Shown here: positions 25,695 to 63,429 of the stretch, piece by piece
Layout: each line of letters starts with the position of its first letter
Position numbering within the stretch: position 1 is the stretch's first letter
Assembly (NCBI RefSeq): GCF_900607235.1
Contig: NZ_LR027854.1
Span: 248,001-312,000 of the forward strand
Direction of reading: 5' to 3'
DNA length: 64,000 nt
Source of the DNA: Olivibacter jilunii
GTDB taxonomy: Bacteria > Bacteroidota > Bacteroidia > Sphingobacteriales > Sphingobacteriaceae
The notes under the pieces: generated by a model
What the model saw: only the letters and a program-made list of their open reading frames with translations
Database searches by the model: none
What the model was told of the DNA's origin: nothing
Made by a program: the position numbers and the translations under genes

Positions 25695-25695
25695 A

Positions 25696-36215: not shown

Positions 36216-36284
36216 AAAAAATAAAGGTCTCCAACCGGGGAGATTGGAGACCTTAGCTAACCAATTATAAACCTAAATTATGAT
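36216..36284 (-). ncRNA. Small RNA gene, copy A of a three-member family with a C-rich terminator loop
   Basis: Minus strand. A 27-nt block (36258-36284) identical in all three copies is followed by a hairpin (36224-36254) with perfect 11-bp arms AAGGTCTCCAA / TTGGAGACCTT and loop TCTCCCCGG, then a T-rich tract (36216-36223). The promoter lies directly upstream (36289-36319). Copies B and C are at 60488-60553 and 63328-63394. The stems differ but stay paired; the loop is constant. Predicted RNA about 68 nt. No leader role is possible because no minus-strand gene follows it. Confidence 0.65.
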
Positions 36285-36288
36285 GAGA

Positions 36289-36319
36289 CAAAGATAGTGT
36301 ACAAAATACACTTTGTCAA
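36289..36319 (-). promoter_or_regulatory. Promoter of small RNA copy A
   Basis: -33 TTG (36317-36319), exactly 20 nt, -7 TATCTTTG (36289-36296). The spacer next to -7 holds GTGTA...TACAC symmetry (36297-36311). Confidence 0.65.
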
Positions 36320-36330
36320 GTTTTTTTATA

Positions 36331-39078
36331 TTATTTCGCTATTTGATAGTGAAAAACCCCTCTCGCCAGTTGCCCATTAGCACCAATTCCCTCTATTACT
36401 ATTCGATATTTACCCTCGTTACCGGTGTTAAAGTAGCTTACACTTGCTTTACCTTCTTTATTAACCGATACTACCGGACTCCAATACACGGTACTACGTT
36501 GATCAGCCAAGATATCCGCTCTTTCTGACACACCGTATTTAGGGGAATAGAACTCACGCGTTGATGTAAAACCTTTCGGCGCATAGAGCTTCGTACTATA
36601 ATCGGTACGTTCCGTTGGTGACCATCCCTTAGTATTGATTAAGATGACTCCGGTAGCAGCCCCGCCTCCATATATATTAGTGAGCGAGGGTGATCGCAGT
36701 ACTTCCAAGCTTAAAATTTGAGTAGGATCTATTAAATTTTGTTCAAAAATACCTACCAAGTCCTGTAAATCTCCGTCGCTATGAAGATCAAGTATGCGCC
36801 CATCAATAATAACCTGCATTTTTCCACCCCGCGTAGAGGTAGGAAAAGTGACAGGCCCTATGCTAGTTTGTTCTGTTCTAAACACAACGCCTCGTAGGCG
36901 TCCTTCCAAACAGGCCCTTAGCGTTGGACAAGTCCCTAGCTCGCTCGCTGATATTATCTGATCAGCTCTACCCGGACCGTTAAGATTATAAGATCGCGGC
37001 AATGATTTAGCCGTTTTGGCGTTTACAATGACCTCATTTAATTTAATGAGCCTACTTTCAAGTCCCACCTTGGCTAATGCATCATCATGTTTTTTTGTAC
37101 TCGAAAAGTATGTATCAAGTTGTTGATTAATATTTAGTGATAGATCAGCTGTATTCTTATTATAGGTTACGCCTAAACTTGGAATCCCTTCCAAAACGAG
37201 TTCGACTTTATCACTCCCTTTCTCGGAACGCCCTTGTATGGTAAATTTTATATTATCGGCTAAAAATAGACTGTCAAACACAAACACACCTTCTGTGTCT
37301 GTAATAGTTTCGAGTGTAATATTTGCAGCCACGGAAAGCAACGTTATTTTACCATTAACAACCGGTTTACCTTGGAGCGTAAGCAATTTCCCGCTAATGG
37401 AGGATACCATTTTCTCGGGAGGATAAATCGGTTTTTTCAACTTGTCGGCCAGCAAATCCGACCAAATAAAACGGCGGTACCCCTGCGTCATCAGCAACAG
37501 GTCCAAATGATCACGCTTTTCATCAGTTATATTGGTAAAATAGTAATTTGGTTGTTCGATATATCCTCTTAAATTACTTTGTAATAATAATTGAGAGAGA
37601 ATGGTGGTTTCTTGCTCTTCTTTAACAGGAACTTGACTTTCATCGGTAACAGCTAAGGAAAAATTTCCTGAAACTGGCAGTCCTTCATTGTCGAGCACGC
37701 TCAAGTTAAAGTTTTGCTCGCTTCTTGGCTTATAACTATCCTTTAAATTCGCGAGGGATATATTTAAATTATCGCTACGCTCTATGAAAGCAATCCGTTC
37801 ATTCAAAGCTTGCCCTTGACTAAACAAAGTGAATTGGACAATTCCTGAAACACCTTGTGTCAACGGCACATATAAATTGTTTAGTGGACGATTAGGGCTT
37901 AAATCAGTTGCATAAAACACTTCTCCATCTGCTTGTGCAACAATACTTATCGGTTGTTTCAATCGATCGTTACTGCACATAATACGTAAAAGCACTGTAT
38001 CCGTTGCAGCCTGTGAATACACCGACAGCACATATCCGGAAGTCTTTACCTTGGGAAGCGAAAGCTGCTTTGTGCTACCATCCTGAAATACAACTTGAGC
38101 CTTGTATTGCTTTCCACTTTCGGGAGTAAACATAAACTGCCCCATACCCGCATGCACGCTATTAAATGTTGTTAAAATTTGCTGATTTTCATCCAACACT
38201 TCACCTTTTATCTCGACACCCAGGCCATTCACACCTATTGCCTTAAAAGCGATCCGATTGGGAACACCCGCCACTAGATCACCACTTTCAGGAAAAAACT
38301 GGACATCGGCCCGATCATATTGTAAATTTATCGGAAAAATGCTTGTCGCTACTTTCTCTTTATCTAGCCGAATTTCGCTTACAATAAAAGCCGTAACTGA
38401 ATCACGTAAACTTCTTTCACTCAATGGCACCATTAATCGTCCCTCTTCATCCGTTTTACCCTTTCGCTGGTTCAATAACTCGCTCTCCGTGCGTATGAAG
38501 TATTCGATTGATTTTTCGACCAGGGGCCTCCCTTCTCCATCAAAAAACCGGATATGCATCCCACTAAGTTTTTTGTCTTCCGTTTCATCAAATTGCAACG
38601 TTGCTTGGGTTTGAATTCCATAAGGGCTTATGGCACCGATGTATAAGATGCGGTCATAAAAGTAATCGCTGTCAGCATTCCGCATCCACTGCGTATATGC
38701 TCTTAAACGATAGTTTCCTGCTTTTAATTCTACAGGCAAACTAATATTGCCCTTAGCCATACCGGCAATGAGTGGTAACTTAAGTGAAGAAACTACCGAA
38801 TCAGTTGAAGAAATAAGATCGACATAAACGGCTCCACTTAACGAAGAGAGTTGATGATATGCTCCCACGACAGTATAGGTCTTAAACCAAATCGTGTCAC
38901 CGGCCATATAATAAGGCTTGTCTATATGTAAGTGTACTTTTTCTGACGGATATTCTTTGGCCCAAGCCTCAAGTGGTTTTAAAATTTGTTCCACGCTATC
39001 CTGCGCGTTTGCAATAATAGCGCTCTGGCTAAAAAGCAATAAATACAGCAAAACGCGAGAAACGAAATTTTTAATCAT
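36331..39078 (-). CDS. Exported MG2 / carboxypeptidase-like / TonB-plug domain protein
   Basis: Last gene of the 12-gene operon. The 915 residues have a Sec signal (about 1-25), a macroglobulin-type MG2 domain (about 45-160, KVHLHIDKPYYMAGDTIWFKTY), further beta domains, a carboxypeptidase-like domain (about 560-650), a TonB-plug-like domain (about 700-830, GGKMQVIIDGRILD, LRSPSLTNIYGGGAATGVILINTKG) and a C-terminal beta domain (WSPVVSVNKEGKASVSYFNT). There is no barrel, so it cannot be a transporter by itself. Such proteins are common and uncharacterised in Bacteroidota; a role at the outer membrane beside SusC is plausible. Confidence 0.82.
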   Translation of the reverse strand: MIKNFVSRVLLYLLLFSQSAIIANAQDSVEQILKPLEAWAKEYPSEKVHLHIDKPYYMAGDTIWFKTYTVVGAYHQLSSLSGAVYVDLISSTDSVVSSLKLPLIAGMAKGNISLPVELKAGNYRLRAYTQWMRNADSDYFYDRILYIGAISPYGIQTQATLQFDETEDKKLSGMHIRFFDGEGRPLVEKSIEYFIRTESELLNQRKGKTDEEGRLMVPLSERSLRDSVTAFIVSEIRLDKEKVATSIFPINLQYDRADVQFFPESGDLVAGVPNRIAFKAIGVNGLGVEIKGEVLDENQQILTTFNSVHAGMGQFMFTPESGKQYKAQVVFQDGSTKQLSLPKVKTSGYVLSVYSQAATDTVLLRIMCSNDRLKQPISIVAQADGEVFYATDLSPNRPLNNLYVPLTQGVSGIVQFTLFSQGQALNERIAFIERSDNLNISLANLKDSYKPRSEQNFNLSVLDNEGLPVSGNFSLAVTDESQVPVKEEQETTILSQLLLQSNLRGYIEQPNYYFTNITDEKRDHLDLLLMTQGYRRFIWSDLLADKLKKPIYPPEKMVSSISGKLLTLQGKPVVNGKITLLSVAANITLETITDTEGVFVFDSLFLADNIKFTIQGRSEKGSDKVELVLEGIPSLGVTYNKNTADLSLNINQQLDTYFSSTKKHDDALAKVGLESRLIKLNEVIVNAKTAKSLPRSYNLNGPGRADQIISASELGTCPTLRACLEGRLRGVVFRTEQTSIGPVTFPTSTRGGKMQVIIDGRILDLHSDGDLQDLVGIFEQNLIDPTQILSLEVLRSPSLTNIYGGGAATGVILINTKGWSPTERTDYSTKLYAPKGFTSTREFYSPKYGVSERADILADQRSTVYWSPVVSVNKEGKASVSYFNTGNEGKYRIVIEGIGANGQLARGVFHYQIAK

Positions 39079-39112
39079 ATCAAGATTGTTTAGGAATCTG
39101 AAGCATTAACTT

Positions 39113-40150
39113 TTAAGTTTGCGGCAACGATAATACCCGCCATTCGGATAGTTGGAAGAGGGAACCTGAATTCACCGCCGTCACATATATACGATAAAAA
39201 TTATAAGCGGTTGAATTAGCAAAAGTAAAGGTCCTTGTTTCTCTCCTTCCGGGGAAATCTTCGTTTTCACGTCTATCTAAAACGGTCCAATTGCTACCGT
39301 CTTTTGATCCTTCTAAACGCCAATTAAGCGGATCGCGACCATCTGCATCATTGCCTGATGTAAAGGTATAACCACCTAGCACAACAGGATTATAGAATTC
39401 CAGCTGAAACCACAGATCACCCGAGAAATCCGACTGCAAAAATTTAGTCGTGATATCATTGTCCACCAATTTCTTCGATCCCTCTCCCCCATCGGGCCCG
39501 CCATTATTATCTCTTGAAACAGAAAGCACGCCATCTGCCGTTACGTCTCTAACAATGCCCAAATCAGTTAACAACCGCGTAATTTGCAAAACCGATCCTT
39601 TAGGTGTTTTTCCTTGTAGTGTATAATAATCAAACCTTCCTGTCTCCACAGGGATGCTGACTTCGCGTTCAGTGGAAATAGGAGTACCTGTAGCCGTTGC
39701 TCCGTTATACCAGCTGACTTCGCTTAAATTTACTCCAGTATTAACTGCCAAATCCAAGGTTCCGGTTCCCGTAGGACGGGTGTCCATTTCCATCAATCGG
39801 TTTGGGTTTATTTGGATAATTTTCTCCCGTTGAGCCCAGTATTTTTCTTCATTCTCTACACGCATTAAAACGGTAAATGTTCCCGTTTTTAAAAAAGTGT
39901 GTACCGGTGAGGTTTCGACAGAGCTACTGTCGTCTCCGAACTCCCAACGAACGACTGAAAAATTCGTTGACTCATTTTCAAAATCAAAAGTAAACGGATC
40001 ATCATCTGCTACCTGCGAAGCTGTAAAGCTTGCGGTAGGCTTAGGTCCCTCTGGTTCAGGTGCAATCTCTTTCTCATCCTTTTTACAACCCGCACACAGT
40101 GTTACAGCGAGGAAAATTGTCCCCAGCAAATTCCTGAATTGTATTTCCAT
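39113..40150 (-). CDS. PKD plus F5/8-type C (discoidin) surface lipoprotein
   Basis: I start at 40150 (MEIQFRN); the frame is open two codons more. The 345 residues have a lipobox (TLCAGC, Cys at about 21), a PKD domain (about 38-115, FDFENESTNFSVVRWEFGDDSS), an Ig-like middle and a C-terminal F5/8 C domain (about 200-345). The C domain is close to those of the proteins at 40208 and 51723: SVSRDNNGGPDGGEGSKKLVDN, FTSGNDADGRDPLNWRLEGSKDGSNW. Carbohydrate or protein binding at the surface is the family role. Confidence 0.82.
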   Translation of the reverse strand: MEIQFRNLLGTIFLAVTLCAGCKKDEKEIAPEPEGPKPTASFTASQVADDDPFTFDFENESTNFSVVRWEFGDDSSSVETSPVHTFLKTGTFTVLMRVENEEKYWAQREKIIQINPNRLMEMDTRPTGTGTLDLAVNTGVNLSEVSWYNGATATGTPISTEREVSIPVETGRFDYYTLQGKTPKGSVLQITRLLTDLGIVRDVTADGVLSVSRDNNGGPDGGEGSKKLVDNDITTKFLQSDFSGDLWFQLEFYNPVVLGGYTFTSGNDADGRDPLNWRLEGSKDGSNWTVLDRRENEDFPGRRETRTFTFANSTAYNFYRIYVTAVNSGSLFQLSEWRVLSLPQT

Positions 40151-40207
40151 AATCAATAGCTATTCCTTTGTTTTTTTATATTAGTCGATAACATGAACAC
40201 GCGTCCG

Positions 40208-41581
40208 CTATGGAACTCGAATAAGCCGCCATTCAGCCAACTGAATAACGCCGCTGCCATTGTTATTGGTAACATTCAATCGATAATATTTATACGCTTT
40301 TGCTGTTTCGAAATCGTAACGCTTGGTTAAGAAACGATTCGCAAAGGTCTCCCCTGCTCTCGTATCTAAAGTGATCCAGATCGACCCATCGTCCGAGCCT
40401 TGCAGATTCCAATCTTTTAAGTCTCGATCCGCAGCATCGTTTGCTGAGGTAATTGTATATGCACCGATAAGCTGTGGTTCCGAAAAAGCTAGCTGAAACC
40501 AACTGCTACCCACAAAACCTGGCTGTAAAAATTTCGTATTAATGTTGTTGTCAATCAGTTTTGCCGCGTTCTCATTGGCATTTGAATTATCGTGGTCTAC
40601 ACTTAAGGTACCCGTAGCAGTTACATCTACTTCTCTTACATATTGCGGATGGACAAGCACAACAACATGACTTTTCGTTGGATCTAAGAGATGCCTAGAT
40701 GTTGCCACTAACTTAACAACTAATGCCAAAGTACGATCGGCATTTTCTTCAATGGTAGACCATGGAACAATTAAATCCATAGCAGCGCGGCTGAGGTTAC
40801 TACCCACCTGATAGGTCTCATTAAGTGTATATTGATCCGGACGAAGGGCAATGGTATTTTCCGGTAAAATACCCTGGCCAACTAAGCTTGCTATACTATC
40901 TGTATTGACACCGGTTGTTACCGTAAAGAAATTCCCAGGTGTCCCTGCTAAACTAATTCCCAGTGGAATATTTATCCCGGCAGAGGTAACATTATAATTC
41001 CTTCGATTGCGCACCTCCAACACCGTGCCACCTCCGTTTGTAATAGACACGTAATGGATATCCTCTTCCTTTAGAATATCGTTGGTATTAAAAACAATTA
41101 TTCCTGATTTATCTGAACCAATCGTATTTCCTTTACCGGGATTAACCAAGTCGTAAGCTAATGCTACTTTATGGCCAAAAAAGCGCTCGAGGCCGGAAAG
41201 GCCGATTTTCACCTCAAAAGTAGCTTCCTTAGCTCCATAAGCGATATCTACCGCGTTCGGTAAGGTAATCGCATTTGAAGGTAATACGTAGACATCGGTC
41301 AAGTTACCGCTCTCTACTAATTGGATCACTGTATCTGCATTTAACTGCAGACCAACCTGAAAAGCTTTTGTCGCCGGGGATGATAAAGTAACTTTTATCG
41401 GGATAGTCACTTCATCACTATTTTTCACGATTTCACCTGCGATTTCACCCGCAGATACTGTCGTAGCAACATTGCGGTTTAATGCAAAACTATCCAGTCC
41501 CTCCTTTTTACAGGAAATTGACATCGTGCAAAGCAAAGCAATAAACACAAGTGGTTTAGTAAGTTTGTATCTTTTGTTCAT
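40208..41581 (-). CDS. DUF1735 (BT_3987-like) plus discoidin-domain lipoprotein
   Basis: The 457 residues have a lipobox (TMSISC, Cys at about 24), two DUF1735-type beta-sandwich units (about 45-155 and 165-300, with repeated IPIKVTLSSPATKAFQVGLQLNADTV and GISLAGTPGNFFTVTTGVNTDS) and a C-terminal F5/8 C domain (about 315-457, SVDHDNSNANENAAKLIDNNINTKFLQ). DUF1735 lipoproteins are surface glycan-binding proteins or accompany GH18 enzymes. Ninety residues of the C domain match the neighbour at 39113 closely. Confidence 0.83.
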   Translation of the reverse strand: MNKRYKLTKPLVFIALLCTMSISCKKEGLDSFALNRNVATTVSAGEIAGEIVKNSDEVTIPIKVTLSSPATKAFQVGLQLNADTVIQLVESGNLTDVYVLPSNAITLPNAVDIAYGAKEATFEVKIGLSGLERFFGHKVALAYDLVNPGKGNTIGSDKSGIIVFNTNDILKEEDIHYVSITNGGGTVLEVRNRRNYNVTSAGINIPLGISLAGTPGNFFTVTTGVNTDSIASLVGQGILPENTIALRPDQYTLNETYQVGSNLSRAAMDLIVPWSTIEENADRTLALVVKLVATSRHLLDPTKSHVVVLVHPQYVREVDVTATGTLSVDHDNSNANENAAKLIDNNINTKFLQPGFVGSSWFQLAFSEPQLIGAYTITSANDAADRDLKDWNLQGSDDGSIWITLDTRAGETFANRFLTKRYDFETAKAYKYYRLNVTNNNGSGVIQLAEWRLIRVP

Positions 41582-41622
41582 ATCTTTCCATCGTTAAAAT
41601 CGTTCTATTGAAAAGGTTCAGT

Positions 41623-47366: not shown

Positions 47367-50300
47367 TTAGAATTCTAAATTACATCCAATATTATAGGTA
47401 CGTGGTACAGGATAACCTTCGGAGATATCGCGCCCCATGGTCGTTACATTTTCGGGGTTCGGACCTGAATAACCACTAAAAGTGTAAACATTATCCATTG
47501 ATACGTATACTCTTAAATTGTTAATGCCCCAACTCCGAACCAGTTTCTTATCAAACATATAGGACAACACAACATTATTGATCTTTAAATAGGAGCCATC
47601 TTCTGCCCAAAGGGTTTGGTCATAGCGATAAGGGTTAACAATTTCAATACGGCTATAGTCATAGGCATAAGGATACTTAGCTATATCACCAGGTTGACGC
47701 CACATATCGAATTCATCTAACGGAATAACGGCCTTAAGTCCAAATGGATTCTTCATCAAGTTAAAACGATCGGCTAAGGCATTATTTAAAATCGTACGTT
47801 TTGCTGTAAAAGAAGCATTGATATTCAAACCAAAACCTTTGTAGGTAATATTGGTTGCCAAACCGCCGGTAAACAAGGGAGAGGCGTTGCCTGTACGTGC
47901 ATAATCATTCGCATCCAACACATAATCCCCATTTAGATCTTTAATGATCGGGTCACCGGCGCGGAATGGTCTTCCGTTAACGCTATAGCGTAGTCCGGTA
48001 GCCGGATTAATAGGCACATCATCATCTGTAGCGTATACCCCCTCGTTAATCAACAAATAATTGGAAAGGGATGGCGTGCCTACACGAAATACATTGTGTT
48101 GTAAATAAGTTTCCCGATTGCCACTATTGGTTTCGAACCGTATAAACTGTCCGCCATAATGTGCAGGCAATTTGAGCAGCACATCCCGATTATAGGCTCC
48201 GTTGACCGTAACCATTAAGTTAAAGGGACTACTGGGCGATAAGGGGCGGATAGTAAACGATAGTTCGTGTCCGTAGTTCACAATACCGGCGTCATTACTA
48301 ATTAATTTACCAAAAGCAACAGTATTCGAAAGATTTTCTTCAAACAATAAGTTATCTACCTTCTTATAATAGGTGTCATAAATTACATCTACTTTATTAT
48401 TGAATAAAGAAAAATCAAGCCCGGCATTATACTGTGTAGTGGTGGTTGGTTTTAGATTCGGGTTGGGAATCTGATCAAAATTTAACCCAATCCCTTGCTG
48501 CCCGTTATAATTACCCGTAATATCATACTTTCCATAAATTCTTTCGAGTGTGCCATTCGGAATCACATTAATACCCCAGCTTAAGCGTAAAGCCCCCATA
48601 TTTAGCCAATCCCAATTGTCTAAAAATTCCTCCTTATCAAAATTCCACCGTAGACCAATAGCTGGGTTTTTGGAGTATAGGTTGTCAAAACCATTCCCTG
48701 ACGATCCATCCAATCGGTAAGATAGGTCCACGACATATTTCTTTTGATAATCATAAGAAGTAGCTAAAGCAAAAGACACCGCACGTTCGTCTAAGAAATT
48801 AGTCAAAATTCCTCCTCCTCGTGAGTAATAGCCATCAAAACCCAATGGCCCCTGAAATTGATCGTTGGGAGTACGTTCTTGTTGCGTGATGGAGTTTTGA
48901 CGATCGCCTTTGCGAATCTCATTGAAAGCATTGATGAAAATATTATGGTTATCCCCGAAGGTTTTGGCATAAGTTAAATTGGTACGACTATAAAGGTTTG
49001 ATTCACGGCCATTAAAAGCATAGACTTTAGCAAACTGATTATTAGCGGCCGCTGGTGTAAAGGTATCTTCATTAGACGACTTAAACTCGTAGCTAAAAAA
49101 GGTGGTTGCACGAAAGCCGGGAAAAATGCTATAACTCACTTCGGCGACGGGTCGAATGACACGAACGTCATTATTATTTTTTGTTCGTAAAGACCCAACA
49201 TAATCGGCGTTTGCTTGATAGAAGGAAGGCCCGGGCATTAAAGTGGACGTTGCTCCCCCATCGGCGACACCTGTTTGTAATAGTCCGGCCCCATCTCCTT
49301 TATTTTGCTTACCTATTTGCGCATTGATCTGTCCAGTGAATTTAAATTTCTCATTCGGTGCATACTCCATACGGAGGTTGGCGCTATAGCGGTCGAATCC
49401 GGTATTTCTGATAACGCCCTTTTCTGTAAAATAACCAAGGTTCGCTTTATAGTTGAAGGTTGGATTTCCACCATCTATCGCTATATTGTGGCTTTGATTA
49501 TAAGTAGTACGGTAATAAAGCGACTGCCAATCTGTTGAATTATTATAATAGGCATTTAAGCTGTCTGACAAAAACGGCGTTTTTATTAAGTCGTCAAGAT
49601 TAATTTCGCCTCTTGCATTAGCCAAGATTTGCTGAATCTTCAACTGCCTTTCCAAATTTCCTCCCAATGTAGCTCTTAAGGCAGGTGGCGCTTTCATAAA
49701 GGTATTATTCGTATACCGTACTCGAGGGATTTCTGAATTACCACGCTTCGTTGTGATGATAATTACTCCATAAGCGGCCATAGAACCGTAAAGGGAAGTA
49801 GCCTGCGCATCTTTCAGGATCTCTATACTGGCAATATCTTCTTGTGGAATCATGGATAAAGGACTTACCCCAGGCCCTTGTTGTTGAAAACCAAATTCAG
49901 AAGCACCATCTGCATCTAAGGGTACACCATCAATTACATATAAGGGTGAGGTAGGCTGAAGGAAAGATTCATTGCCACTCCCCGATACCGTTAACGTAGA
50001 AAGACCCCGAATTTGCGTAGATCCGCGAAAACCAGGGGCTCCCGTGTTTACCTGAATATTAAGTCCCGGCACCTTTCCTTGTAGTAGTTGCTCCACATTG
50101 GCTACCGGAACATCTTTTACTTCGTCTCCGCTAATGGTGACAGATGACCCTGTACTTAGCTGCTTCGAGCGGGAGACAAATCCCCTGACCACCACTTCCT
50201 CCAAGTTACTTTGATCTTCTTCCATCACCACACTTACCGTTGTTTGTCCCGGTTTAAGCGTTACCCTCTTTTCTATGTATCCCATGAATTTGAATACCAG

Positions 50301-50567
50301 GGTTGAACCATCCGGAACGCTTATTCTAAATTCTCCTCTTCCATTTGTGGACGCCAAGGGCTTAGGTGGATTTCCAGCTATAACAGTTACTCCCGGAATG
50401 GTAATTTTTTTCTGGTCGTAAACTACTCCGGACACGACTGTTTGGGCATAGAGTTGATAAAATAACCCGCTTACCAAGAATAGGGTTACCGTCAAAAAAG
50501 TTTGCTTAGCTACCGATAACATTTTACCGGTAATATAGCGTATAAGATAATGCGTAAAACTTTTCAT
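47367..50567 (-). CDS. SusC/RagA-family TonB-linked transporter (no STN domain)
   Basis: The 1066 residues have a signal region (about 1-42), a carboxypeptidase-like domain (about 43-115, SGVVYDQKKITIPGVTVIAG), EEVVVRGFVSRSKQ, plug (about 130-270) and a barrel ending YNIGCNLEF. Without an STN domain it should not signal to a FecR, which fits the lack of any sigma/anti-sigma pair in this operon. Fifth gene of the operon. Confidence 0.94.
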   Translation of the reverse strand: MKSFTHYLIRYITGKMLSVAKQTFLTVTLFLVSGLFYQLYAQTVVSGVVYDQKKITIPGVTVIAGNPPKPLASTNGRGEFRISVPDGSTLVFKFMGYIEKRVTLKPGQTTVSVVMEEDQSNLEEVVVRGFVSRSKQLSTGSSVTISGDEVKDVPVANVEQLLQGKVPGLNIQVNTGAPGFRGSTQIRGLSTLTVSGSGNESFLQPTSPLYVIDGVPLDADGASEFGFQQQGPGVSPLSMIPQEDIASIEILKDAQATSLYGSMAAYGVIIITTKRGNSEIPRVRYTNNTFMKAPPALRATLGGNLERQLKIQQILANARGEINLDDLIKTPFLSDSLNAYYNNSTDWQSLYYRTTYNQSHNIAIDGGNPTFNYKANLGYFTEKGVIRNTGFDRYSANLRMEYAPNEKFKFTGQINAQIGKQNKGDGAGLLQTGVADGGATSTLMPGPSFYQANADYVGSLRTKNNNDVRVIRPVAEVSYSIFPGFRATTFFSYEFKSSNEDTFTPAAANNQFAKVYAFNGRESNLYSRTNLTYAKTFGDNHNIFINAFNEIRKGDRQNSITQQERTPNDQFQGPLGFDGYYSRGGGILTNFLDERAVSFALATSYDYQKKYVVDLSYRLDGSSGNGFDNLYSKNPAIGLRWNFDKEEFLDNWDWLNMGALRLSWGINVIPNGTLERIYGKYDITGNYNGQQGIGLNFDQIPNPNLKPTTTTQYNAGLDFSLFNNKVDVIYDTYYKKVDNLLFEENLSNTVAFGKLISNDAGIVNYGHELSFTIRPLSPSSPFNLMVTVNGAYNRDVLLKLPAHYGGQFIRFETNSGNRETYLQHNVFRVGTPSLSNYLLINEGVYATDDDVPINPATGLRYSVNGRPFRAGDPIIKDLNGDYVLDANDYARTGNASPLFTGGLATNITYKGFGLNINASFTAKRTILNNALADRFNLMKNPFGLKAVIPLDEFDMWRQPGDIAKYPYAYDYSRIEIVNPYRYDQTLWAEDGSYLKINNVVLSYMFDKKLVRSWGINNLRVYVSMDNVYTFSGYSGPNPENVTTMGRDISEGYPVPRTYNIGCNLEF

Positions 50568-54392: not shown

Positions 54393-57356
54393 TTATAAAT
54401 CTACTTTGAGTCCAATGGTGTAAGTTAAGGGGATAGCCATACCATACCCTGAGTCGTATCCTGTGTAATTGATCAGTTCCGGATCGCGCCCACTGTATGG
54501 GGTGATGGTGAAGATATTATTCACAGTCCCATAGATATATAAATGATCAATCTTTGAAGATCTCCGCTTTAACCAATCACTCAGGTCATATCCTATCGAC
54601 ACCGTTCTCAATTTTAAGAATGAAGCGTTTTCGAGGAAAAGATCTTGATTACTGTGGTATGGAATGACTGTACTCCAGGGATTATAAAGCGGATATTTAC
54701 TATAATCACCTCGCTTTTCCCAAAAGGTAATCTCCTTTATAGAAGTAACACCAACAACGCCTTCTCTATTAATAAAGTTAAAACGGTTAGCCATTTCTTC
54801 GTTAACTACCTTTCTTCCTAAATTGAAATAGAAATTAACGCCGAGCGACCAGTTTCCATAGCTGAATTGGTTATTAAATCCACCAACTACTTTCGGAAAG
54901 ATATTCCCCATCAGTGATTTATCTTCGTCATTTATTCGGTTATCGCCATTTAAATCCCGCCAGTTCGGATCGCCTCCCTGAAGGGTAATTCCGTTGTACG
55001 TGCGTGTAATACCGTCTACTTGTGGTACGTCTTGATTGGCAGCATATATACCATCATTGATGAACAACCAATATTGATCTACAGGAGCCCCAACTTGAAG
55101 TAATCGATTACCGATAATCAGCTTGTCCAAACCTCTCGGCAGAGCCTTCAGCTTATTTTGGTTGAAATTAAAGTTGAGGGAAGATGACCAACCTAATTTC
55201 TGTTTCGCCTTCGTTAGAATTTCACCACTCAAAAGAACATCGACTCCTGTATTTCGTACGGTCATTCCCGGTTCGTACGACAGATTATAACCGTATTCTG
55301 CATAGGCGGGAATACCTAAAAGTTGATTCTTATCTTCCTTAATATAACCATCGATTGACGCGGTAATCCGATCCTTAAACAAACCGATATCAAGCCCTAG
55401 GTTCAACTGATCTGTATAGGCCCAGGGTATGCCATAGCCTACCCAGCCAAAATTATACGGTCTCGTTAAAACCGCAAAAGCATTATATCCAGGTGTAGTT
55501 ACATTGCCGGTAAAAGTCACGTCAGCCGTATACGATGGCCCTTGTGAAAAATTGTCAAAGGCATTCAGTCGCCCTAAACGGCCTGCATTTAGACGCATGT
55601 TGAAAGTTGACCACCGTAGATCGTTCTCCAGCAAAGCTTCTTTGATATTCCATCCCAATGAAAGTGCGGGTGTAAACAACCAGCGATTAGTAGGTTGTGC
55701 ATTCGATGAGCCATCGGTTCGCAGTAATAAAGACAGGGTATAAGCATCGTATTTATAGGAAGCTTTTCCATAAAAAGAAACCAGATTCTGCTTGGTACGA
55801 TCTAGAAATTTATAAACTAATTGTCGCGGAAAGGCTGTTGGCAACAAATAGTCGTCGCTATTAGGATCGGAATTGAGTAAATTTAGCTTGATAAAATCAT
55901 TTACCCCTTTATAGGCATAGGCGTAATTATACTTATAGGTATCCCATTGCAAGACGTTTCCTGCCTGCAGAAAAAGTTGCTGATGATCATCTATTTGCCA
56001 GTCAAAACTCGCGAAATTGTCATAAATCAACCGCTGGTTGGAACCATAGTAATTAGAGGCATAACTGTTTCCCTCTAACAAAGGTCGTGGATAAAATATA
56101 TCACGATAACCTTCGTTGTAATCCACTACTAAGCGGGTGGTGTACTTGAATTTATTAAAGTCGAATACCAATTTGGCGTTACCCTGAATGATATTAGTAT
56201 AATTATTATCAAAACCTTTATCATACTGACTTGTATACTGACTATAGACGTCATTATTGGGTGCCAAAGGTGCCTGCAAATCGGGCATGTACCCGATTTC
56301 AGCAAAACGATCCCGCATGTTGTGATTACGCTGTCTATCCAAACGGTTCCCATTAATCATGGCAGAAAACAATAACCATTTCAACGGCTTCATATTCAGA
56401 TGAAACATAGCGCTATAGCGGTCCAAGCCAGTTCCATCTGCAATTCCCTCATTCCGCAAATTGCCTAGCGAAAATCTAAAATTTGCGCGATCCGATCCTC
56501 CTGAGATATCGGCTGTAATCGCATGTTGCAAGCCATTTTGATAGTAGGTGTCTGTCCAATTGGAAGGACCATAGTAATCCATATTCAATGAATCGCTGAG
56601 ATATAGCGGATAGACGTCATCGGCGGAATATTTACCTGTTGTCGTATATAGATCGTAAAATTGCTGCCGAAACGCATTCTCATACTCACCATTGATCGTC
56701 GTCACATTCGGCCTTTGTGCAAATCCGAAGTAAGCATTGGCGCTTATCTTACGTTTACTCCCTACTTGTTTAGTAGTCAGCAAAATTACTCCGTTTGCAG
56801 CCATTGGACCATATAAGGCCATGCCGGCCATATCTTTTAATACCTGTACAGAAGCAATATTATTCATATCAATATTGGTGAGCAGGTTAGTTGCCGGACC
56901 AATTCGATTGAAATCATATTGTTTGATATCATAAGCGAAAGAATGCTCTCCAATTAGTGGAATACCGTCCAATACAATCAAAGGTTGTGATTGATAGATT
57001 TCCTTTGCCGACAGTATGGGCATAGGAACACCTCGTACATACATTTGCTGAAGACTTCCAGGCTCTCCGCTCGTCTCTTGAATGTATAGTCCCGGTGCCT
57101 GTCCCTTCAAAGATTGCTGAAGCGACACAGCAGGATATACGGTAAGTTCTTTCATAGTAGATCCAACGGTTTTCACTGCACGATCGGTAAATTCGGCAGA
57201 TGTTTCTCGATGCACCGTGTCAATAGAGGCCTTAACGCTATCCACGGCTAGACTATCCTGAATAGTCATTGCAGATCCCTCGCTTAGGGTGAAAAGAATG
57301 CTATAACAGAAAATGGCTACTTTATAATACCATCTCACATGCATTGTTTTTGGCAT
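54393..57356 (-). CDS. SusC-like TonB-linked transporter lacking STN and carboxypeptidase-like domains
   Basis: First gene of the 12-gene operon. The 987 residues have a signal region (about 1-30) and go almost at once into the plug (about 65-200, AVSLQQSLKGQAPGLYIQETSGEPGSLQQMYVRGVPMP, SVQVLKDMAGMALYGPMAANGVILLTTKQ), then a barrel ending IGLKVDL. The usual carboxypeptidase-like N-terminal domain is missing, replaced by about 40 polar residues. The 590-bp upstream region holds a possible promoter about 300 bp away. Confidence 0.92.
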   Translation of the reverse strand: MPKTMHVRWYYKVAIFCYSILFTLSEGSAMTIQDSLAVDSVKASIDTVHRETSAEFTDRAVKTVGSTMKELTVYPAVSLQQSLKGQAPGLYIQETSGEPGSLQQMYVRGVPMPILSAKEIYQSQPLIVLDGIPLIGEHSFAYDIKQYDFNRIGPATNLLTNIDMNNIASVQVLKDMAGMALYGPMAANGVILLTTKQVGSKRKISANAYFGFAQRPNVTTINGEYENAFRQQFYDLYTTTGKYSADDVYPLYLSDSLNMDYYGPSNWTDTYYQNGLQHAITADISGGSDRANFRFSLGNLRNEGIADGTGLDRYSAMFHLNMKPLKWLLFSAMINGNRLDRQRNHNMRDRFAEIGYMPDLQAPLAPNNDVYSQYTSQYDKGFDNNYTNIIQGNAKLVFDFNKFKYTTRLVVDYNEGYRDIFYPRPLLEGNSYASNYYGSNQRLIYDNFASFDWQIDDHQQLFLQAGNVLQWDTYKYNYAYAYKGVNDFIKLNLLNSDPNSDDYLLPTAFPRQLVYKFLDRTKQNLVSFYGKASYKYDAYTLSLLLRTDGSSNAQPTNRWLFTPALSLGWNIKEALLENDLRWSTFNMRLNAGRLGRLNAFDNFSQGPSYTADVTFTGNVTTPGYNAFAVLTRPYNFGWVGYGIPWAYTDQLNLGLDIGLFKDRITASIDGYIKEDKNQLLGIPAYAEYGYNLSYEPGMTVRNTGVDVLLSGEILTKAKQKLGWSSSLNFNFNQNKLKALPRGLDKLIIGNRLLQVGAPVDQYWLFINDGIYAANQDVPQVDGITRTYNGITLQGGDPNWRDLNGDNRINDEDKSLMGNIFPKVVGGFNNQFSYGNWSLGVNFYFNLGRKVVNEEMANRFNFINREGVVGVTSIKEITFWEKRGDYSKYPLYNPWSTVIPYHSNQDLFLENASFLKLRTVSIGYDLSDWLKRRSSKIDHLYIYGTVNNIFTITPYSGRDPELINYTGYDSGYGMAIPLTYTIGLKVDL

Positions 57357-57946
57357 AATGTATTATTTAGGTTATATCACTTAAATATTGGCCATATGGT
57401 TCATTTTCTGCTTTGGAAAAACCATAGCAGACCCAGTGAACTGAATTTTCAATTTTAATTTTCGGTGGTGAATTAATAATCAGTCAGTATGATGACAACA
57501 TCCATACGATTCCAGCAAGGTTGATAAGCTTCACAAATTAGGTCAATACAATAACTGATAATTAAAACGATTTAGCTTTAGTATAAAATGTATGTTTTTT
57601 TCATAATATAATTTTTAGGTTATATGTTATTTATTTTAGGTTCTTTACAAATCTCAAAACTATTGCGCCTTGACATTCACACCACAAACAACTGTAATAA
57701 TTTTGTGATTTACAAGGCTTGCAAGTGGCTCCTACGAAAAAATGAAAGTAATAATTTGATAAACAACACTTTAAACATTGTTAACGGATTGTTAACAAGC
57801 CAAAAGAACGACAAAAGCAACGAAAAATTTCTCACATTCGGGAAAAAGGAGCACAGGTCGATAAAAAATGGAGGCGCTTGTCCGTTTGTATTATTCAATA
57901 GGAACAAGAATAATCACAGTTATTCATTTAATGTAAACAACTATGA
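57357..57946. other. Leader/promoter region of the 12-gene operon, no gene
   Basis: 590 AT-rich bp between the SusC-like start and the GNAT stop. A plus-strand frame of 118 codons (57624-57980) is Asn/Lys-rich and overlaps the GNAT gene; I do not regard it as a gene. The region contains a possible minus-strand promoter (57655-57688), two direct copies of ATTGTTAAC (57777-57785, 57788-57796), and TTTAGGTTATAT repeated near 57368 and 57614. Confidence 0.45.
57655..57688 (-). promoter_or_regulatory. Possible promoter of the 12-gene SusCD operon
   Basis: Minus strand: -33 TTTG (57685-57688), 22-nt spacer, -7 TAGTTTTG (57655-57662). It would give a leader of about 290 nt, long enough for regulation by RNA structure or antisense. 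Confidence 0.4.
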
Positions 57947-58447: not shown

Positions 58448-58458
58448 TTATACGATTA

Positions 58459-58890: not shown

Positions 58891-58902
58891 GAGCTTTTTT
58901 TA

Positions 58903-58939: not shown

Positions 58940-58942
58940 CAG

Positions 58943-58998: not shown

Positions 58999-59006
58999 GA
59001 CTTCAA

Positions 59007-59402
59007 CTATGATTGCGGGATTTCTTCTGCAGACTTCCCCATGCCCCTATGTGATTCACGATGTTTCCTTTTCTGAAATCTTTCCTTTTTAAGCTTCTGA
59101 TAGGTTGATTTTTGTGCCTCCGTTAAGAGCTCACTTATTTTTTCATCTCGCTCTTTCATACTTTTTTGCATAAGTTCTTTATGCTCGGCATCAACCTTCT
59201 TCATATTATCCAAATTGATGGCATAGATCTCTTTTTTCTGTTCCTCTGATAGAGAAAGTTCTTGAGCAAGTCGCTCGGTTTGCCTTTTTGCTCTCTCTTC
59301 TGCCATTTTAAATTCCCTCTTACGATGATTTTGCTGGGCAAATGCGATGGTTCCCATACTGAGGAATAGCAGGGAAGCTAGAATCATTCTTTTCATACTC
59401 AA
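59007..59402 (-). CDS. Spy/CpxP-like (DUF4890-type) small exported protein
   Basis: The 131 residues have a Sec signal (about 1-22, TIAFAQQ) and a highly charged helical body with an LTXXQ-like motif (ELSLSEEQKKEIYAINLDNMKKVDAEH; LLTEAQKSTYQKLKKERFQKRKH). Such periplasmic proteins act as ATP-independent chaperones or stress sensors. His-rich tail (HRESHRGMG) could bind metal. An inner ATG at 59396 is an equal start. The 188-bp gap upstream holds nothing else I can name. Confidence 0.8.
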   Translation of the reverse strand: MSMKRMILASLLFLSMGTIAFAQQNHRKREFKMAEERAKRQTERLAQELSLSEEQKKEIYAINLDNMKKVDAEHKELMQKSMKERDEKISELLTEAQKSTYQKLKKERFQKRKHRESHRGMGKSAEEIPQS

Positions 59403-59590
59403 TAAATTTTAATAATCACTTTATTTATACGTATAGAGTCAAACGGAAAAGAATGGTTTAGCATGGTACTTGTTAAAAATTGTTAATAGGAGTCGGATCT
59501 ACTGTTGGAAGAAACGCTACACTTATATCCATAAGAGCCAAGCTGTAAATCCGATCTAAGTATTTCGTTTTATGCCGGTCGTTCGCCCAC

Positions 59591-60310
59591 TTACTTATTT
59601 TTGAGATGCTCTAACCAAGCAAAATGCGGCTCAAGATGGAGACGCATCCCCTTTCTAAAATCTTCCACAGTGCCCTCCCGTAGAATTTGTAACAGATCGG
59701 CATGAGACACTCCTCCAGGTTTATAGTGATCTTTCTCAAAGGCAACCACATAGTCAAATAACGGCAAAAGCAGGCTCTGAAAACGCATAAGCGTATGATT
59801 GTTCGTCATGGCATAAAGCTTACCATGAAAAGCTATCTCATTTTTTATTCTGAATTTTTCACTGTCAGGCTTTTCCTTTGTTACAATTTTCTCAAGCTCT
59901 TGTATATCCTGATCTGTTTTATACATGTATAGAACATCAGCTAATCCCATTTCTAAAACCAGTCGTAGTCCAAAAATGTCGTAAAGGGTGCTATCGGGCA
60001 TAATCAATGGATCAAGCACTTTTTCAAAAGACCCCAAAATATCGGGTTCAGCCAGTACCATCCCGCGCTTCTTTTTTGTTTCAATTAGGCCAAGCGCCTT
60101 CAATCTGCTGAGTGCTTCTCTAACAATGTTTCTGCTAACACCTAATGAAGCAGCGATTTCCAACTCCTTAGGCAATAAGTCGCCTGGTTTAAAGGCCTTT
60201 TTCTTAAAATATTCTCTCAGCTTAAGTTCTACTTGATCTGCCATGGTTAAGTTATGGAGTTTTGGCAAATCAAATGCAAGGTGCTTAGTATTTGGTTTCG
60301 ACTTTTCCAT
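59591..60310 (-). CDS. GntR-family (FadR/FCD) transcriptional regulator
   Basis: The 239 residues have a GntR winged helix (about 22-92, LREYFKKKAFKPGDLLPKELEIAASLGVSRNIVREALSRLKALGLIETKKKRGMVL) and an FCD ligand domain (about 105-230) with metal/ligand residues in LRLVLEMG, FHGKLYAMTNN and H in SHADLL. FCD regulators respond to sugar acids and similar carboxylates. It diverges, across about 600 bp, from the exported Gfo/Idh/MocA gene and may control it. Confidence 0.9.
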   Translation of the reverse strand: MEKSKPNTKHLAFDLPKLHNLTMADQVELKLREYFKKKAFKPGDLLPKELEIAASLGVSRNIVREALSRLKALGLIETKKKRGMVLAEPDILGSFEKVLDPLIMPDSTLYDIFGLRLVLEMGLADVLYMYKTDQDIQELEKIVTKEKPDSEKFRIKNEIAFHGKLYAMTNNHTLMRFQSLLLPLFDYVVAFEKDHYKPGGVSHADLLQILREGTVEDFRKGMRLHLEPHFAWLEHLKNK

Positions 60311-60339
60311 TATGCAAGATGCAAAATTTAATCAAAATA

Positions 60340-60348
60340 TGTAGTACA
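60340..60348. promoter_or_regulatory. Possible FadR-type operator before the GntR gene
   Basis: TGTAGTACA contains the GT-N3-AC core of FadR-subfamily operators, 30 bp before the GntR start codon. A short motif; chance occurrence is possible. Confidence 0.35.
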
Positions 60349-60487
60349 AAAAAGAACAGTGTATGGCTATTCGCTCCCTCTCAGCATTATTTCGCGCCGT
60401 TTGCGTATCAAATCGAGGCAAGTCTTCGCTGAACAAGACAAGTGTAGAAATCTGAATATCCAATTTTCTTAATGACTACAGATAGAC

Positions 60488-60553
60488 AAAAAGAAAACCT
60501 TCAGCCGGGGAGACTGAAGGTTTCATTAACCAATTATAAACCTAAATTATGAT
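60488..60553 (-). ncRNA. Small RNA gene, copy B of the three-member family
   Basis: Minus strand. The identical 27-nt block (60527-60553) is followed by a hairpin (60495-60523) with 10-bp arms AAACCTTCAG / CTGAAGGTTT and the constant loop TCTCCCCGG, then TTTTCTTTTT. This is the only copy upstream of a minus-strand gene (GntR, 170 bp away), but its terminator implies an independent RNA. Confidence 0.65.
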
Positions 60554-60557
60554 TCAA

Positions 60558-60589
60558 CAAAAATAGTGTTTAAACACCTTAATCCCAAA
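60558..60589 (-). promoter_or_regulatory. Promoter of small RNA copy B
   Basis: -33 TTTG (60586-60589), exactly 20 nt, -7 TATTTTTG (60558-60565). A perfect 12-bp palindrome GTGTTTAAACAC (60566-60577) adjoins -7. Confidence 0.65.
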
Positions 60590-60915
60590 TTGTCATACTT
60601 TTTTTACACACAAGCTGACTTAGAGACTTAGAAGAATTCGGTGCCAAACAAAGTCGTGATCTTTGCTTAATCCCCCGGTAATATGAACGATATCGTTTGC
60701 GTAGATTTTTCACACGGAATATTCTTTTTAAAGAGAACAGGTTATTATACTTGTATTGAAGACTACTGAATCGCTATACTTAGACGGCTTTCGTTAGGTA
60801 TACCAAAAATTATGAACCATTACAGCGCGTTTATTAGTCTACGAAAGGAAAATAAAAGAGCGAATGCTCTTGTCTGAGAATTGATCAATATTAATTATTA
60901 CTAACCAATAAACTT
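60590..60915. other. Upstream region of the Gfo/Idh/MocA gene, no gene
   Basis: 326 bp. It contains a 12-bp perfect palindrome AACGATATCGTT (60686-60697), a possible operator, and a small hairpin AGAGC-GAAT-GCTCT (60857-60870). No clear promoter elements seen. Confidence 0.4.
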
Positions 60916-62265
60916 ATGGTACAAAAAAATGAAAATTCCCGGCGTGAATTTATTAAGAAGGCTTCAATCGGTGCGGGGATAATAGGCCTTTCATCAATGG
61001 GACTCAGCACAAAAAGCTATGGGAGGATCTTGGGAGCAAACGACCGCGTTCGCGTTGCCATTGTAGGGTTTTCAAATCGTTTTAAAAGCTCCTTATTTCC
61101 GAGTTTTATGAATCATTCTAAAAAACTAAATTTCGAATTTGTAGGGGTATCCGATATTTGGAATAGAAGGAGAGATGAGGCCGTTGCTTTTATAAAGGAA
61201 AAAGCGGGCACGTCGATCGCGACTTATCGAAACAATGACGAAATGTACGCACAAAAAGATATCGATGCCGTCATTATTAGTACCGCGGATTTTCAGCATG
61301 CACTGATGGCAGCCGAGGCTGTACGTAATGGAAAAGACGTATATGTAGAGAAACCGATGGCTGAAACTTTGGAAGATGCAAAAGTTGTGCTACAGGCCGT
61401 CAATGAAACCGGAAAAATCTTACAAGTGGGTTCGCAAAGAAGAAGCGCTCCTAACTATATTTCAGCCAATGAATACATCCGATCAGGTAAATTTGGCGAT
61501 ATAAAAATGGTAGAAATGACCTGGAATGTAAATCAACCGGGACGGTGGAGGTTGCCACAGTTAATTAAAGAAATTCGCGAACAGGATACGGACTGGAACC
61601 GATTCTTAATGAACAGACCCAAGGTTGCTTGGGATCCCCGAAAATATTTAGAGTATCGATTGTTTTGGCCATATTCATCGGGCATCTTTGGCCAGTGGAT
61701 GTCTCACCAAATTGACACGGTCCATTGGTTTACCGGGCTCGAACATCCGCGTAGTGTATCAGCCAACGGGGGGATCTACATGTGGAACGATGGCAGGACA
61801 AATCCGGATACGGTTACAGCTGTCATGGATTACGGCCCGGCGAACGATCCAACGAAAGGTTTCCAGGTGCTCTATTCCTCGCGTTTTACAAATTCGGCGG
61901 GCGGCATTAAAGAGCTTTATTACTCTAATGCAGGCATGTTAAATCTTGACACCAATCAAGTGACTGATGAGGGAGGATTAACGGCTAAAATGGCTGCAGA
62001 AATGGGCATGCAAGCGAATTTGCTTCAACCATTTACCTTGTCCAACGCAACTAAGATAGAAACAGCTGCCAATACTGGAAGCGACCCAATGACTTCGCTT
62101 CATATGCTCAACTGGATGGAGTGTGTACGTAGCAGAAAAACACCAAATGCATCTGTTAAAGCCGGTTACAATCACAGTGTGGCCAATATTATGGCACGAA
62201 TAGCATTGGAGACAGGCAAAAGAGTTTCCTTTGATGACGCTAAACAAGAAGTCGTGGTCGGTTAA
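60916..62265 (+). CDS. Exported Gfo/Idh/MocA-family oxidoreductase with Tat signal
   Basis: NAD(P)-dependent sugar oxidoreductase fold. The 449 residues begin with a twin-arginine signal (SRREFIKKASIGAGIIGLSSMGLS, about 7-32), common in Bacteroidota members that carry tightly bound cofactor. Then a Rossmann domain (about 43-165, VRVAIVGFSNR, DAVIISTADFQHALMAAEAVRNGKDVYVEKPMAET with the EKP motif) and a C-terminal alpha/beta domain (GQWMSHQIDTVHWFTG with the catalytic His/Asp). Some exported members are glycosidases using NAD. Followed after 10 bp by the DUF6807 gene. Confidence 0.9.
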   Translation: MVQKNENSRREFIKKASIGAGIIGLSSMGLSTKSYGRILGANDRVRVAIVGFSNRFKSSLFPSFMNHSKKLNFEFVGVSDIWNRRRDEAVAFIKEKAGTSIATYRNNDEMYAQKDIDAVIISTADFQHALMAAEAVRNGKDVYVEKPMAETLEDAKVVLQAVNETGKILQVGSQRRSAPNYISANEYIRSGKFGDIKMVEMTWNVNQPGRWRLPQLIKEIREQDTDWNRFLMNRPKVAWDPRKYLEYRLFWPYSSGIFGQWMSHQIDTVHWFTGLEHPRSVSANGGIYMWNDGRTNPDTVTAVMDYGPANDPTKGFQVLYSSRFTNSAGGIKELYYSNAGMLNLDTNQVTDEGGLTAKMAAEMGMQANLLQPFTLSNATKIETAANTGSDPMTSLHMLNWMECVRSRKTPNASVKAGYNHSVANIMARIALETGKRVSFDDAKQEVVVG

Positions 62266-62275
62266 ATTCTTAGTC

Positions 62276-63319
62276 ATGAATAAACAAATCAGCATTTTAG
62301 CGTTTATTGGCATTGCCTTAGTTAGCAGCTTCAAAGTTGAAAAAAAAGGCTTTTCTATTGTTGAGAACAAAAAGGAAAAAAGAATAGATATTAGCATTGA
62401 TGGTCGGATTTTCACCTCGTATATTTATCCGGATGAATTGATGAAGCCGGTACTCTATCCTATAAGATCGTCAGAAGGTACTTTTATCACAAGAGGATGG
62501 CCATTCGATCCTAGACCCGGGGAGCGGGTGGATCATCCGCACCATGTCGGTTTATGGTTTAATTACGGCGACGTAAATGGTCTCGATTTCTGGAACAATT
62601 CGACCGCTATACCTTCGGATAAAAAGAATCAATACGGGACCATTAAGCATGCCAAAGTTAATAAGATTCAGACTGCGAACGACCATGCTTTACTGGAAGT
62701 AACGAAATATTGGCAAGAACCAACCGGCAGCCCCATCTTACAAGAGAACACACAGTATTTATTTTCTACTGACAGTGGTAGACGTACAATCGAGCTCACT
62801 ACAACATTAACAGCACTGAAAAAAAATGTTTTATTTACAGACAACAAAGAAGGGTTATTAGGAATTCGCTTGGCACGGGAGTTGGAACATCCTTCAGATG
62901 AGTCAGCCAAATTCACAGATGCTAACGGCAACATCACAGAAGTTGCGCAGCTAGATAATAACCAAGTCACCGGAAAGTACCGTAGTAGTGAGGGAAAAGA
63001 GGGTGATCAGGTATGGGGTACACGTGGTAGGTGGGTCAATTTGGATGGAAAAATAGGGCGTGAAGCGATATCGATAGTGATCATTGACCATCCGAAAAAC
63101 GTAGGCTATCCCACCTATTGGCACGCTAGGGGTTATGGTTTATTTGCAGCTAATCCATTGGGGCAGAAAGCCATGAGTAACGGAAAAGAAGAATTGAACT
63201 TTTCTTTGGATGCAGGAAAATCCGTCACTTTCAAATACCAAATCATTATACAATCCGGAAAACACTTAAGTGACAAGGAAATCAACAATATAACACAAAT
63301 CTTCGCGGCCTCACTATAG
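62276..63319 (+). CDS. DUF6807 (PmoA-like) exported protein
   Basis: Start at 62276 (MNKQISILAF), which follows the previous stop by 10 bp and gives a signal peptide; the frame is open to 62231. The 347 residues contain FITRGWPFDPRPGERVDHPHHVGLWFNYGDVNGLDFW, the His-rich signature of DUF6807, called PmoA-like although no methane oxidation is implied, and a galactose-mutarotase-like beta sandwich. Such genes often pair with exported Gfo/Idh/MocA genes and sugar catabolism. Function unknown. Confidence 0.85.
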   Translation: MNKQISILAFIGIALVSSFKVEKKGFSIVENKKEKRIDISIDGRIFTSYIYPDELMKPVLYPIRSSEGTFITRGWPFDPRPGERVDHPHHVGLWFNYGDVNGLDFWNNSTAIPSDKKNQYGTIKHAKVNKIQTANDHALLEVTKYWQEPTGSPILQENTQYLFSTDSGRRTIELTTTLTALKKNVLFTDNKEGLLGIRLARELEHPSDESAKFTDANGNITEVAQLDNNQVTGKYRSSEGKEGDQVWGTRGRWVNLDGKIGREAISIVIIDHPKNVGYPTYWHARGYGLFAANPLGQKAMSNGKEELNFSLDAGKSVTFKYQIIIQSGKHLSDKEINNITQIFAASL

Positions 63320-63327
63320 CTTTTAAT

Positions 63328-63394
63328 ATAAAAAAGTCTTCAACCGGGGAGATTGAAGACTTTTAACTAACCAATTATAAACCTAAATTATGAT
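63328..63394 (-). ncRNA. Small RNA gene, copy C of the three-member family
   Basis: Minus strand, 9 bp beyond the stop codon of the opposite-strand DUF6807 gene. Identical 27-nt block (63368-63394), hairpin (63332-63364) with 12-bp arms AAAAGTCTTCAA / TTGAAGACTTTT, constant loop TCTCCCCGG, then a T tract (63330-63335). No minus-strand gene follows. Confidence 0.65.
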
Positions 63395-63398
63395 AGCG

Positions 63399-63429
63399 CA
63401 AAGATAGTGTATAAAATACACATAAGCAA
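63399..63429 (-). promoter_or_regulatory. Promoter of small RNA copy C
   Basis: -33 TTG (63427-63429), exactly 20 nt, -7 TATCTTTG (63399-63406). Next to -7 is GTGTAT-AAA-ATACAC (63407-63421), perfect 6-bp arms. Confidence 0.65.

Follow-up and report, generated by a model that had tools for sequence, protein, structure and literature searches.

A multicopy family of predicted small RNAs with complementarity to susC translation starts in Olivibacter jilunii, related genomes and viral contigs

We analyzed a 64-kb window of the Olivibacter jilunii genome (Sphingobacteriaceae; contig NZ_LR027854.1, positions 248,001 to 312,000), the whole stretch to which the coordinates below refer. Its minus strand carries three copies, c36, c60 and c63, of a predicted small RNA (sRNA) gene, located exactly where a first-pass annotation of this DNA had placed them. 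In all three, TTG or TTTG, exactly 20 nucleotides (nt) and then TATCTTTG or TATTTTTG can be read directly. The 27-nt block ATCATAATTTAGGTTTATAATTGGTTA, the same in all three, comes next, then a hairpin with its T tract; when the copies are aligned the block is invariant and the hairpin stems differ. The -33/-7 arrangement is what we take to be the Bacteroidota housekeeping promoter type. A GTGTA-N5-TACAC inverted repeat, absent from the first-pass annotation, sits in the spacer that separates the -33 from the -7 box in c36 and c63. No transfer RNA (tRNA) was found within the window. The elements are as follows:

36219-36284, minus strand: sRNA copy c36, about 66 nt, with the 5' end placed by the position of the -7 box; seed 36258-36284, terminator hairpin 36224-36254, T tract
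36289-36296, minus strand: -7 box TATCTTTG of c36
36297-36311, unstranded: inverted repeat GTGTATTTTGTACAC, putative operator, between the -33 and -7 boxes of c36
36317-36319, minus strand: -33 element TTG of c36
60489-60553, minus strand: sRNA copy c60, about 65 nt; seed 60527-60553, hairpin 60494-60524, T tract
60558-60565, minus strand: -7 box TATTTTTG of c60
60566-60577, unstranded: shorter inverted repeat GTGTTTAAACAC in the promoter spacer of c60, outside the 24 promoters with GTGT-N7-ACAC described below
60586-60589, minus strand: -33 element TTTG of c60
63328-63394, minus strand: sRNA copy c63, about 67 nt; seed 63368-63394, hairpin 63332-63364, T tract
63399-63406, minus strand: -7 box TATCTTTG of c63
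63407-63421, unstranded: inverted repeat GTGTATTTTATACAC, putative operator of c63
63427-63429, minus strand: -33 element TTG of c63

The predicted RNA consists of the constant, largely unpaired 27-nt 5' block and a terminator hairpin. The window copies fold into stems of 13-14 bp closed by the 5-nt loop UCCCC, with z values of -3.2 to -3.5 against dinucleotide shuffles. The 5' part is unpaired in the centroid structure of all three copies and in the minimum free energy (MFE) structure of two, the MFE structure of c36 showing a weak extra stem. The copies had been described as sharing a 9-nt loop that never changes; this holds within the window, but the folded loop is 5 nt long, its outer U-G and C-G being paired, and the 9-mer varies across the genome, where it reads TCTCCCCGG in 10 of 15 copies, TCTCCCCGA in three and GCCCATC in two.

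What had been taken for a three-member family is considerably larger. Allowing up to three mismatches, a 26-mer of the block matched 15 sites in the 6.70-Mb genome (G000), 14 of them exactly, and the reversed 26-mer none; a covariance model gave 18 matches at E<0.001, rising to 20 at E<=1. The proposed covariation of the stem was borne out in the model alignment (A4; 18 copies, all of one loop class, the seven class C copies of alignment A3 being excluded), where 97.0% of cells are paired and nine of 13 pairs have changed on both sides. None of 500 shuffles reached the observed pairing, both-side changes or covariation score, and stem partners shifted by one to three columns scored far worse; the number of further pair types was ordinary (reached by 309 of 500 shuffles). 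In the 2.05 Mb of G000 that were fetched, 15 copies (14 of the 26-mer set and C2:341204) are intergenic, none overlapping an open reading frame (ORF) of at least 80 amino acids, and they show no location bias towards susC (5/15 near a susC gene vs 180/516 of gaps overall). This placement fits action in trans.

A covariance-model search of the same taxonomic family, as the first-pass annotation had suggested, covered 151 sampled genomes and matched 130 of them at E<=0.01, each with between 1 and 32 copies. In a phylum-wide sample searched at E<=0.001 with stricter filters, 11 of 395 genomes matched, namely nine of the 11 same-family genomes listed and, weakly, two of 384 others. Single near-matches to the seed in distant genomes (up to three mismatches) were rejected as chance, since the reversed control matches there too, and named plasmid records held no copy. 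The statement that no Rfam family fits was confirmed by the absence of window matches at gathering score (Rfam 15); when seven copies were compared with Rfam at E<=1, the only matches over the element were the sub-gathering OrzO-P (L008) and rnk_leader (L012). These RNA genes thus appear to form a family of paralogous, independently promoted genes with predicted products of about 65-68 nt, comparable, as the annotation had suggested, to paralogous sRNAs of Bacteroides.

Sorting by 5' flank and loop resolved 62 distinct contexts among loci L001-L117. Class A, with a CUCCCC loop and a -7 box, comprises 39 contexts, or 41 once GATATTTG is admitted, and the A and TTTG of the -7 box are kept in 41/41 distinct class A promoters. 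Seven contexts, all from genus g2, combine the CUCCCC loop with GGCA(C/T)-N5/6-TTG, an element that resembles the sigma-54 consensus. Class C numbers 13 contexts, whose loop is GCCCA(U) or close to it and which lack a -7 box next to the seed, and one context is unclassed; some class C copies of G000 have a -7-like box 20-45 nt upstream, judged by eye. RpoN is encoded in 148 of the 151 genomes, so that transcription by sigma-54 would be possible. The seven g2 copies preceded by the element lie in loci L038, L044, L077, L079, L081 and L082, suggesting sigma-54 control.

Next to the -7 box, GTGT-N7-ACAC occurs in 24 of the 41 class A promoters, with 18 different inner 5-mers. The exact repeat GTGTA-N5-TACAC has seven sites in the 2.05 Mb, six of which are promoters of the sRNA family, the seventh lying about 230 bp upstream of a susC gene; among control half-sites, AGTGT-N7-ACACT occurs five times and six other pairs of the same spacing 0, 0, 1, 3, 1 and 2 times. 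On the simplest reading, the repeat is a putative operator of some regulator. Common descent of the promoters could explain part of its recurrence.

To the 27-nt block the first-pass annotation had given no role. We compared it with the start regions of 1656 ORFs in the 2.05 Mb, among which phmmer searches with window proteins called 42 SusC and 39 SusD. The seed reads as the complement of a start region: its CAU can face AUG, followed by complementarity to leaders such as ACCAAUU...AACCUAA. Against SusC start regions the seed reached a mean of -10.9 kcal/mol compared with -8.8 for other genes, while control seeds, shuffled and reversed, gave -7.9 for SusC and -8.1 for the others (p=1.4e-6 on the difference from control), and 12 of the 42 SusC genes were among the best 100 of the 1656 ORFs. 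Antisense 7-mers numbered 62 in the 42 SusC starts vs 24 for reversed words, and AACCTAA was present in 6/42 SusC starts vs 13/1570 others. On these sequence grounds, the 5' block is complementary to translation start regions and favors those of SusC genes to a modest, though significant, degree, and the block, rather than the loop, is indicated as the pairing part. Three predicted target sites lie in the window:

7642-7668, minus strand: start region of the susC gene 4295-7645 (Pfam SusC-type domains), in which ACCAAUU, AACCUAA and AUG pair with the seed; -14.0 kcal/mol
25678-25700, minus strand: over the start codon of the susC-like gene 22248-25694; -14.5 kcal/mol
57364-57395, minus strand: upstream of the susC-like gene 54393-57356, the first gene of the run that precedes c36; -14.3 kcal/mol

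The nearest precedent is FopS of Bacteroides thetaiotaomicron (PMC11697453). It has 14 paralogues, runs as two bands near 65 and 70 nt, is driven by a sigma-ABfr promoter and pairs through its 5' seed with the translation starts of susC, whose translation it represses in experiments in vitro and in vivo; the RNA recognition motif (RRM) protein RbpB counteracts it, and one phage carrier is mentioned. The two families agree in copy number (12-15 per Bacteroides genome vs 15 by pattern or 18 by model in G000), in a length of about 65-70 nt with a free 5' seed followed by a 3' terminator (lengths being predicted here), in the canonical Bacteroidota promoter on class A copies, the sigma-54-like class and the class without an adjacent box being different, in seed pairing with susC starts, here a computed enrichment, and in carriage of the RNA by phages. 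GibS of B. thetaiotaomicron likewise has a long unpaired 5' seed acting around start codons, but it is encoded by one gene and has two seeds, a different set of targets and a promoter of another type (PMC7366714).

We consider it probable that the window RNAs are multicopy trans-acting sRNA genes that act as translational silencers of SusC-type transporters and are perhaps exploited by phages. Most copies would start at the housekeeping-type promoter, about half of those with the inverted-repeat operator; the unpaired 5' 27 nt would serve as an extended seed, antisense to translation starts and directed preferentially at the SusC-type transporter genes that head nutrient-uptake operons; and by pairing there the RNA would keep translation from initiating, in the way that FopS acts on susC in Bacteroides. 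The 3' half would act as an intrinsic terminator, its stem maintained through compensatory changes. The phage versions, mostly promoterless, with the same seed, behind the portal gene and in some cases beside tRNAs, probably turn down the same transporters during infection. We found no paper on this sRNA family or its phage copies among the open-licence full texts of PubMed Central (PMC). If the silencing reading is right, the FopS principle, in which a many-copy RNA silences nutrient transporters, would extend to a second bacterial family.

Several observations weigh against this interpretation. The target preference is modest and statistical, with 30 of the 42 susC genes outside the best 100 and only three SusC among the top 20 single matches. 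Starts were taken as the longest ATG ORF, hence some start regions are wrong. The susD starts also beat the control (-9.9 vs -7.9), antisense 7-mers exceed reversed words in other genes as well (643 vs 444), and the SusC-like gene 47367-50567 of the window scores merely -6.8. In Bacteroides faecis, where FopS is addressed below, the foreign seed separated susC with p 0.0049 vs 0.0043 for the FopS seed, with nine susC genes; since both seeds are significant there, specificity is not clean. The RRM_1 domain (E<=0.001) was found neither in G000 nor in the sRNA carriers G002 and G122, and was present in G080 and G099, while Hfq exceeded the cut-off in none of the 151 genomes, with one sub-threshold match. 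No known chaperone is therefore at hand, and a chaperone-free or new-chaperone mechanism becomes testable. Finally, it is from the shared seed alone that the viral contigs described below appear to belong to phages of this bacterial family.

Closest to this interpretation stands the possibility that the RNAs are true FopS orthologues, descended from one ancestral Bacteroidota sRNA whose seed drifted along with the susC leader consensus. The FopS sequence was recovered in B. faecis, at first as two copies in 368 kb by -7 box and terminator and then by a genome-wide pattern, which gave 17 matches (reversed control 1), 15 of them with promoter and terminator and two (L297 and L298) without. In addition to the shared predicted length, copy number, promoter type and order of 5' seed and terminator, the 5' ends of the two families can be aligned, with CATA-T-TTAG-TTTA in common and GGTTA further on. 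However, the covariance model reached a best E=0.92 in B. faecis without recovering FopS, the two matches among the 384 other genomes of the phylum sample are weak, and the similarity to the FopS/GibS R1 seed lies only weakly above shuffles, being matched by 233 of 5000 for the phage or class C end and by 1447 of 5000 for the class A end. In G000 the family's own seed separated SusC better than the FopS seed did (p=7e-6 vs 0.024), and by mean difference each genome's own seed separated SusC from other genes best. We regard orthology as possible but rather doubtful; since the architecture agrees, while the model misses FopS and shuffles reach the similarity, we name the family FopS-like in action and stop short of counting it as a member of FopS.

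FopS itself and one phage carrier of it are already published. New, as far as the accessible FopS text allows the comparison, are the near-constant UCCCC loop, which is absent from the 15 B. faecis FopS copies, the inverted repeat in the promoter, the sigma-54-like elements on some copies and the many phage-borne copies, tRNA- or portal-linked; the seed, too, is the family's own. The RRM protein described as the FopS partner has no RRM_1 counterpart in G000.

The sequence TTTAGGTTWATAATTGGTTA occurs in 39 viral contigs (L300-L338), and its reverse in one. In 35 of the 39 copies there is no TA..TTTG within 60 nt upstream; L303, L320, L328 and L330 have one, at 11 nt in L328 and 16 nt in L330. 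A run of five T follows within 65 nt in 36 copies. ARAGORN placed a tRNA end within about 15 nt upstream of four (L301, L311, L326 and L327, the last two without a determined type), and a T-arm-like word lies within 45 nt upstream of nine. Nine of ten neighbouring proteins from five contigs match phage head or packaging families (terminase, portal, major head). When the portal protein of L319 was used as query, 21 loci were obtained, and in all 15 with at least 68% identity that reach past the portal gene, the sRNA follows it in the same orientation (L367-L381, detected with up to four edits). Five of these 15 contigs, the query's included, are among the 39 and ten lie outside, four of the ten (L373-L376) being near-identical in this stretch. 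The remaining six portal loci, without the sRNA, comprise one at 54% identity, one truncated at 70% and four at 26-34%.

A different set of viral contigs, 28 in number (L339-L366), carries the FopS seed. In 16 of them a -7 box, which may be host flank, lies within 30 nt; 11 have no such box, and one is cut off. Ten neighbouring proteins in these contigs gave six phage functions (tail fibre, terminase twice, integrase twice, RecE-like), one PHROG of unknown function and three without a match. By eye, the FopS seed of L340 and L360 stands behind tRNA-like 3' ends. The seeds may be host-matched, the present family's in one set of phage contigs and that of FopS in another.

IpeX of prophage DLP12 acts on porin expression. 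Other phage-borne RNAs are PreS of lambda, which acts on a host mRNA and depends on Hfq, and STnc6030, which mediates superinfection exclusion by acting on a phage tailspike mRNA; neither, as far as the source consulted shows, reproduces a seed taken from a multicopy sRNA family of its host (PMC12197685). The Hfq requirement of PreS sets it apart, given that Hfq was above cut-off in no genome of the present family. Sus and TonB-dependent transporters have been linked to phage sensitivity in Bacteroides, a link that fits a receptor-silencing role and does not show it (PMC8042965). We tentatively propose, as a plausible but less than probable model, that Bacteroidota phages carry host-matched private anti-SusC sRNA copies, made as tRNA-linked trailers of late head-gene transcripts, which would shut down TonB-dependent transporters of the host to block superinfection or free translation capacity, a form of host sRNA mimicry. 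The host seed and conserved position of the phage copies suggest that phages use a host RNA code for outer-membrane transporters, and may offer a route to superinfection exclusion.

An unlikely alternative reverses the direction: a phage-derived element would act in the service of phages, and the copies on chromosomes would be its domesticated remnants. The 39 viral contigs and the portal-linked synteny agree with it, as do the class C chromosomal copies, which lack the standard adjacent -7 box, share the phage-like CTTCTC/CTTTTC 5' flank and in some cases of genus g4 stand behind a tRNA or tRNA-like sequence. Among g4 class C copies a close upstream tRNA, tRNA-Cys, was called by ARAGORN and Rfam only for L039/L116. 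Yet the -7 box is kept in the 41 class A contexts and missing within 60 nt in 35 of the 39 viral copies, and the neighbours of the G000 class C copies look by eye like ordinary chromosomal ORFs. Separately, L024, L030, L105, L106 and L108 (g4) show, by eye, a degenerate tRNA-Leu-like or shrunken tRNA-like sequence just upstream that neither ARAGORN nor Rfam called.

The first-pass annotation had suggested the loop as the functional seed, able to pair with purine-rich GGGGAG near ribosome-binding sites. UCCCC is indeed the commonest loop, in 10 of 324 script-predicted terminators of the 2.05 Mb, all ten being family copies, and CTCCCCG recurs in 8 of the 15 portal-linked loci; four of these loci are nearly the same in this part. 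However, GGGGAG occurs in 3 of 1651 start regions and in none of the 42 of SusC (reversed word, 4 and 0), and the shorter GGGAG in 25 start regions vs 15 for its reverse and in one of the 42 of SusC; the loop also varies between classes, with CTCCCC in none and CTCCC in 19 of the 39 viral copies, while the 5' block persists. We consider the proposal very improbable. The UCCCC loop, which is kept in two divergent G122 model matches with differing 5' blocks (L101 and L110), would be conserved for a separate purpose, most likely protein binding or RNA stability, protein binding being a guess. Weaker still, and hardly credible, is a decaying, functionless, REP-like dispersed repeat, the outcome against which the annotation had wanted its family tested: the many copies, the tandem arrays of some genomes and a few divergent copies would suit it, but covarying stems, kept promoters, occurrence in 130 of 151 genomes and portal-linked conservation in phages rule against it.

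The gene run next to c36 is the following:

36331-57356, minus strand: run of 12 ORFs read in one direction, two susC/susD pairs among them; c36 starts about 46 nt past its last gene

Since c36 follows this run, whose first gene is a predicted target, read-through could also yield a form of the RNA in a 3' untranslated region.

Elsewhere, an intact copy at G000:C7:91186-91253 stands beside a diverged model match with a CCCA-type loop (L055:1652-1721), possibly a decaying or specialised paralogue. Among named phage records, the only match to the element was a weak 26-nt one in Tenacibaculum phage JQ (H1, MT002873.2:8174-8199; E=0.2). In G281:C6:120493-224056, 20 model matches fall within about 104 kb of one contig. 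In two genera, an rpoN-type gene stands within about 2-7 kb of tandem sRNA arrays with a spacing of about 310-400 bp (G240:C14:260100-261665, G233:C7:211528-211896 and G214:C77:8146-8534).

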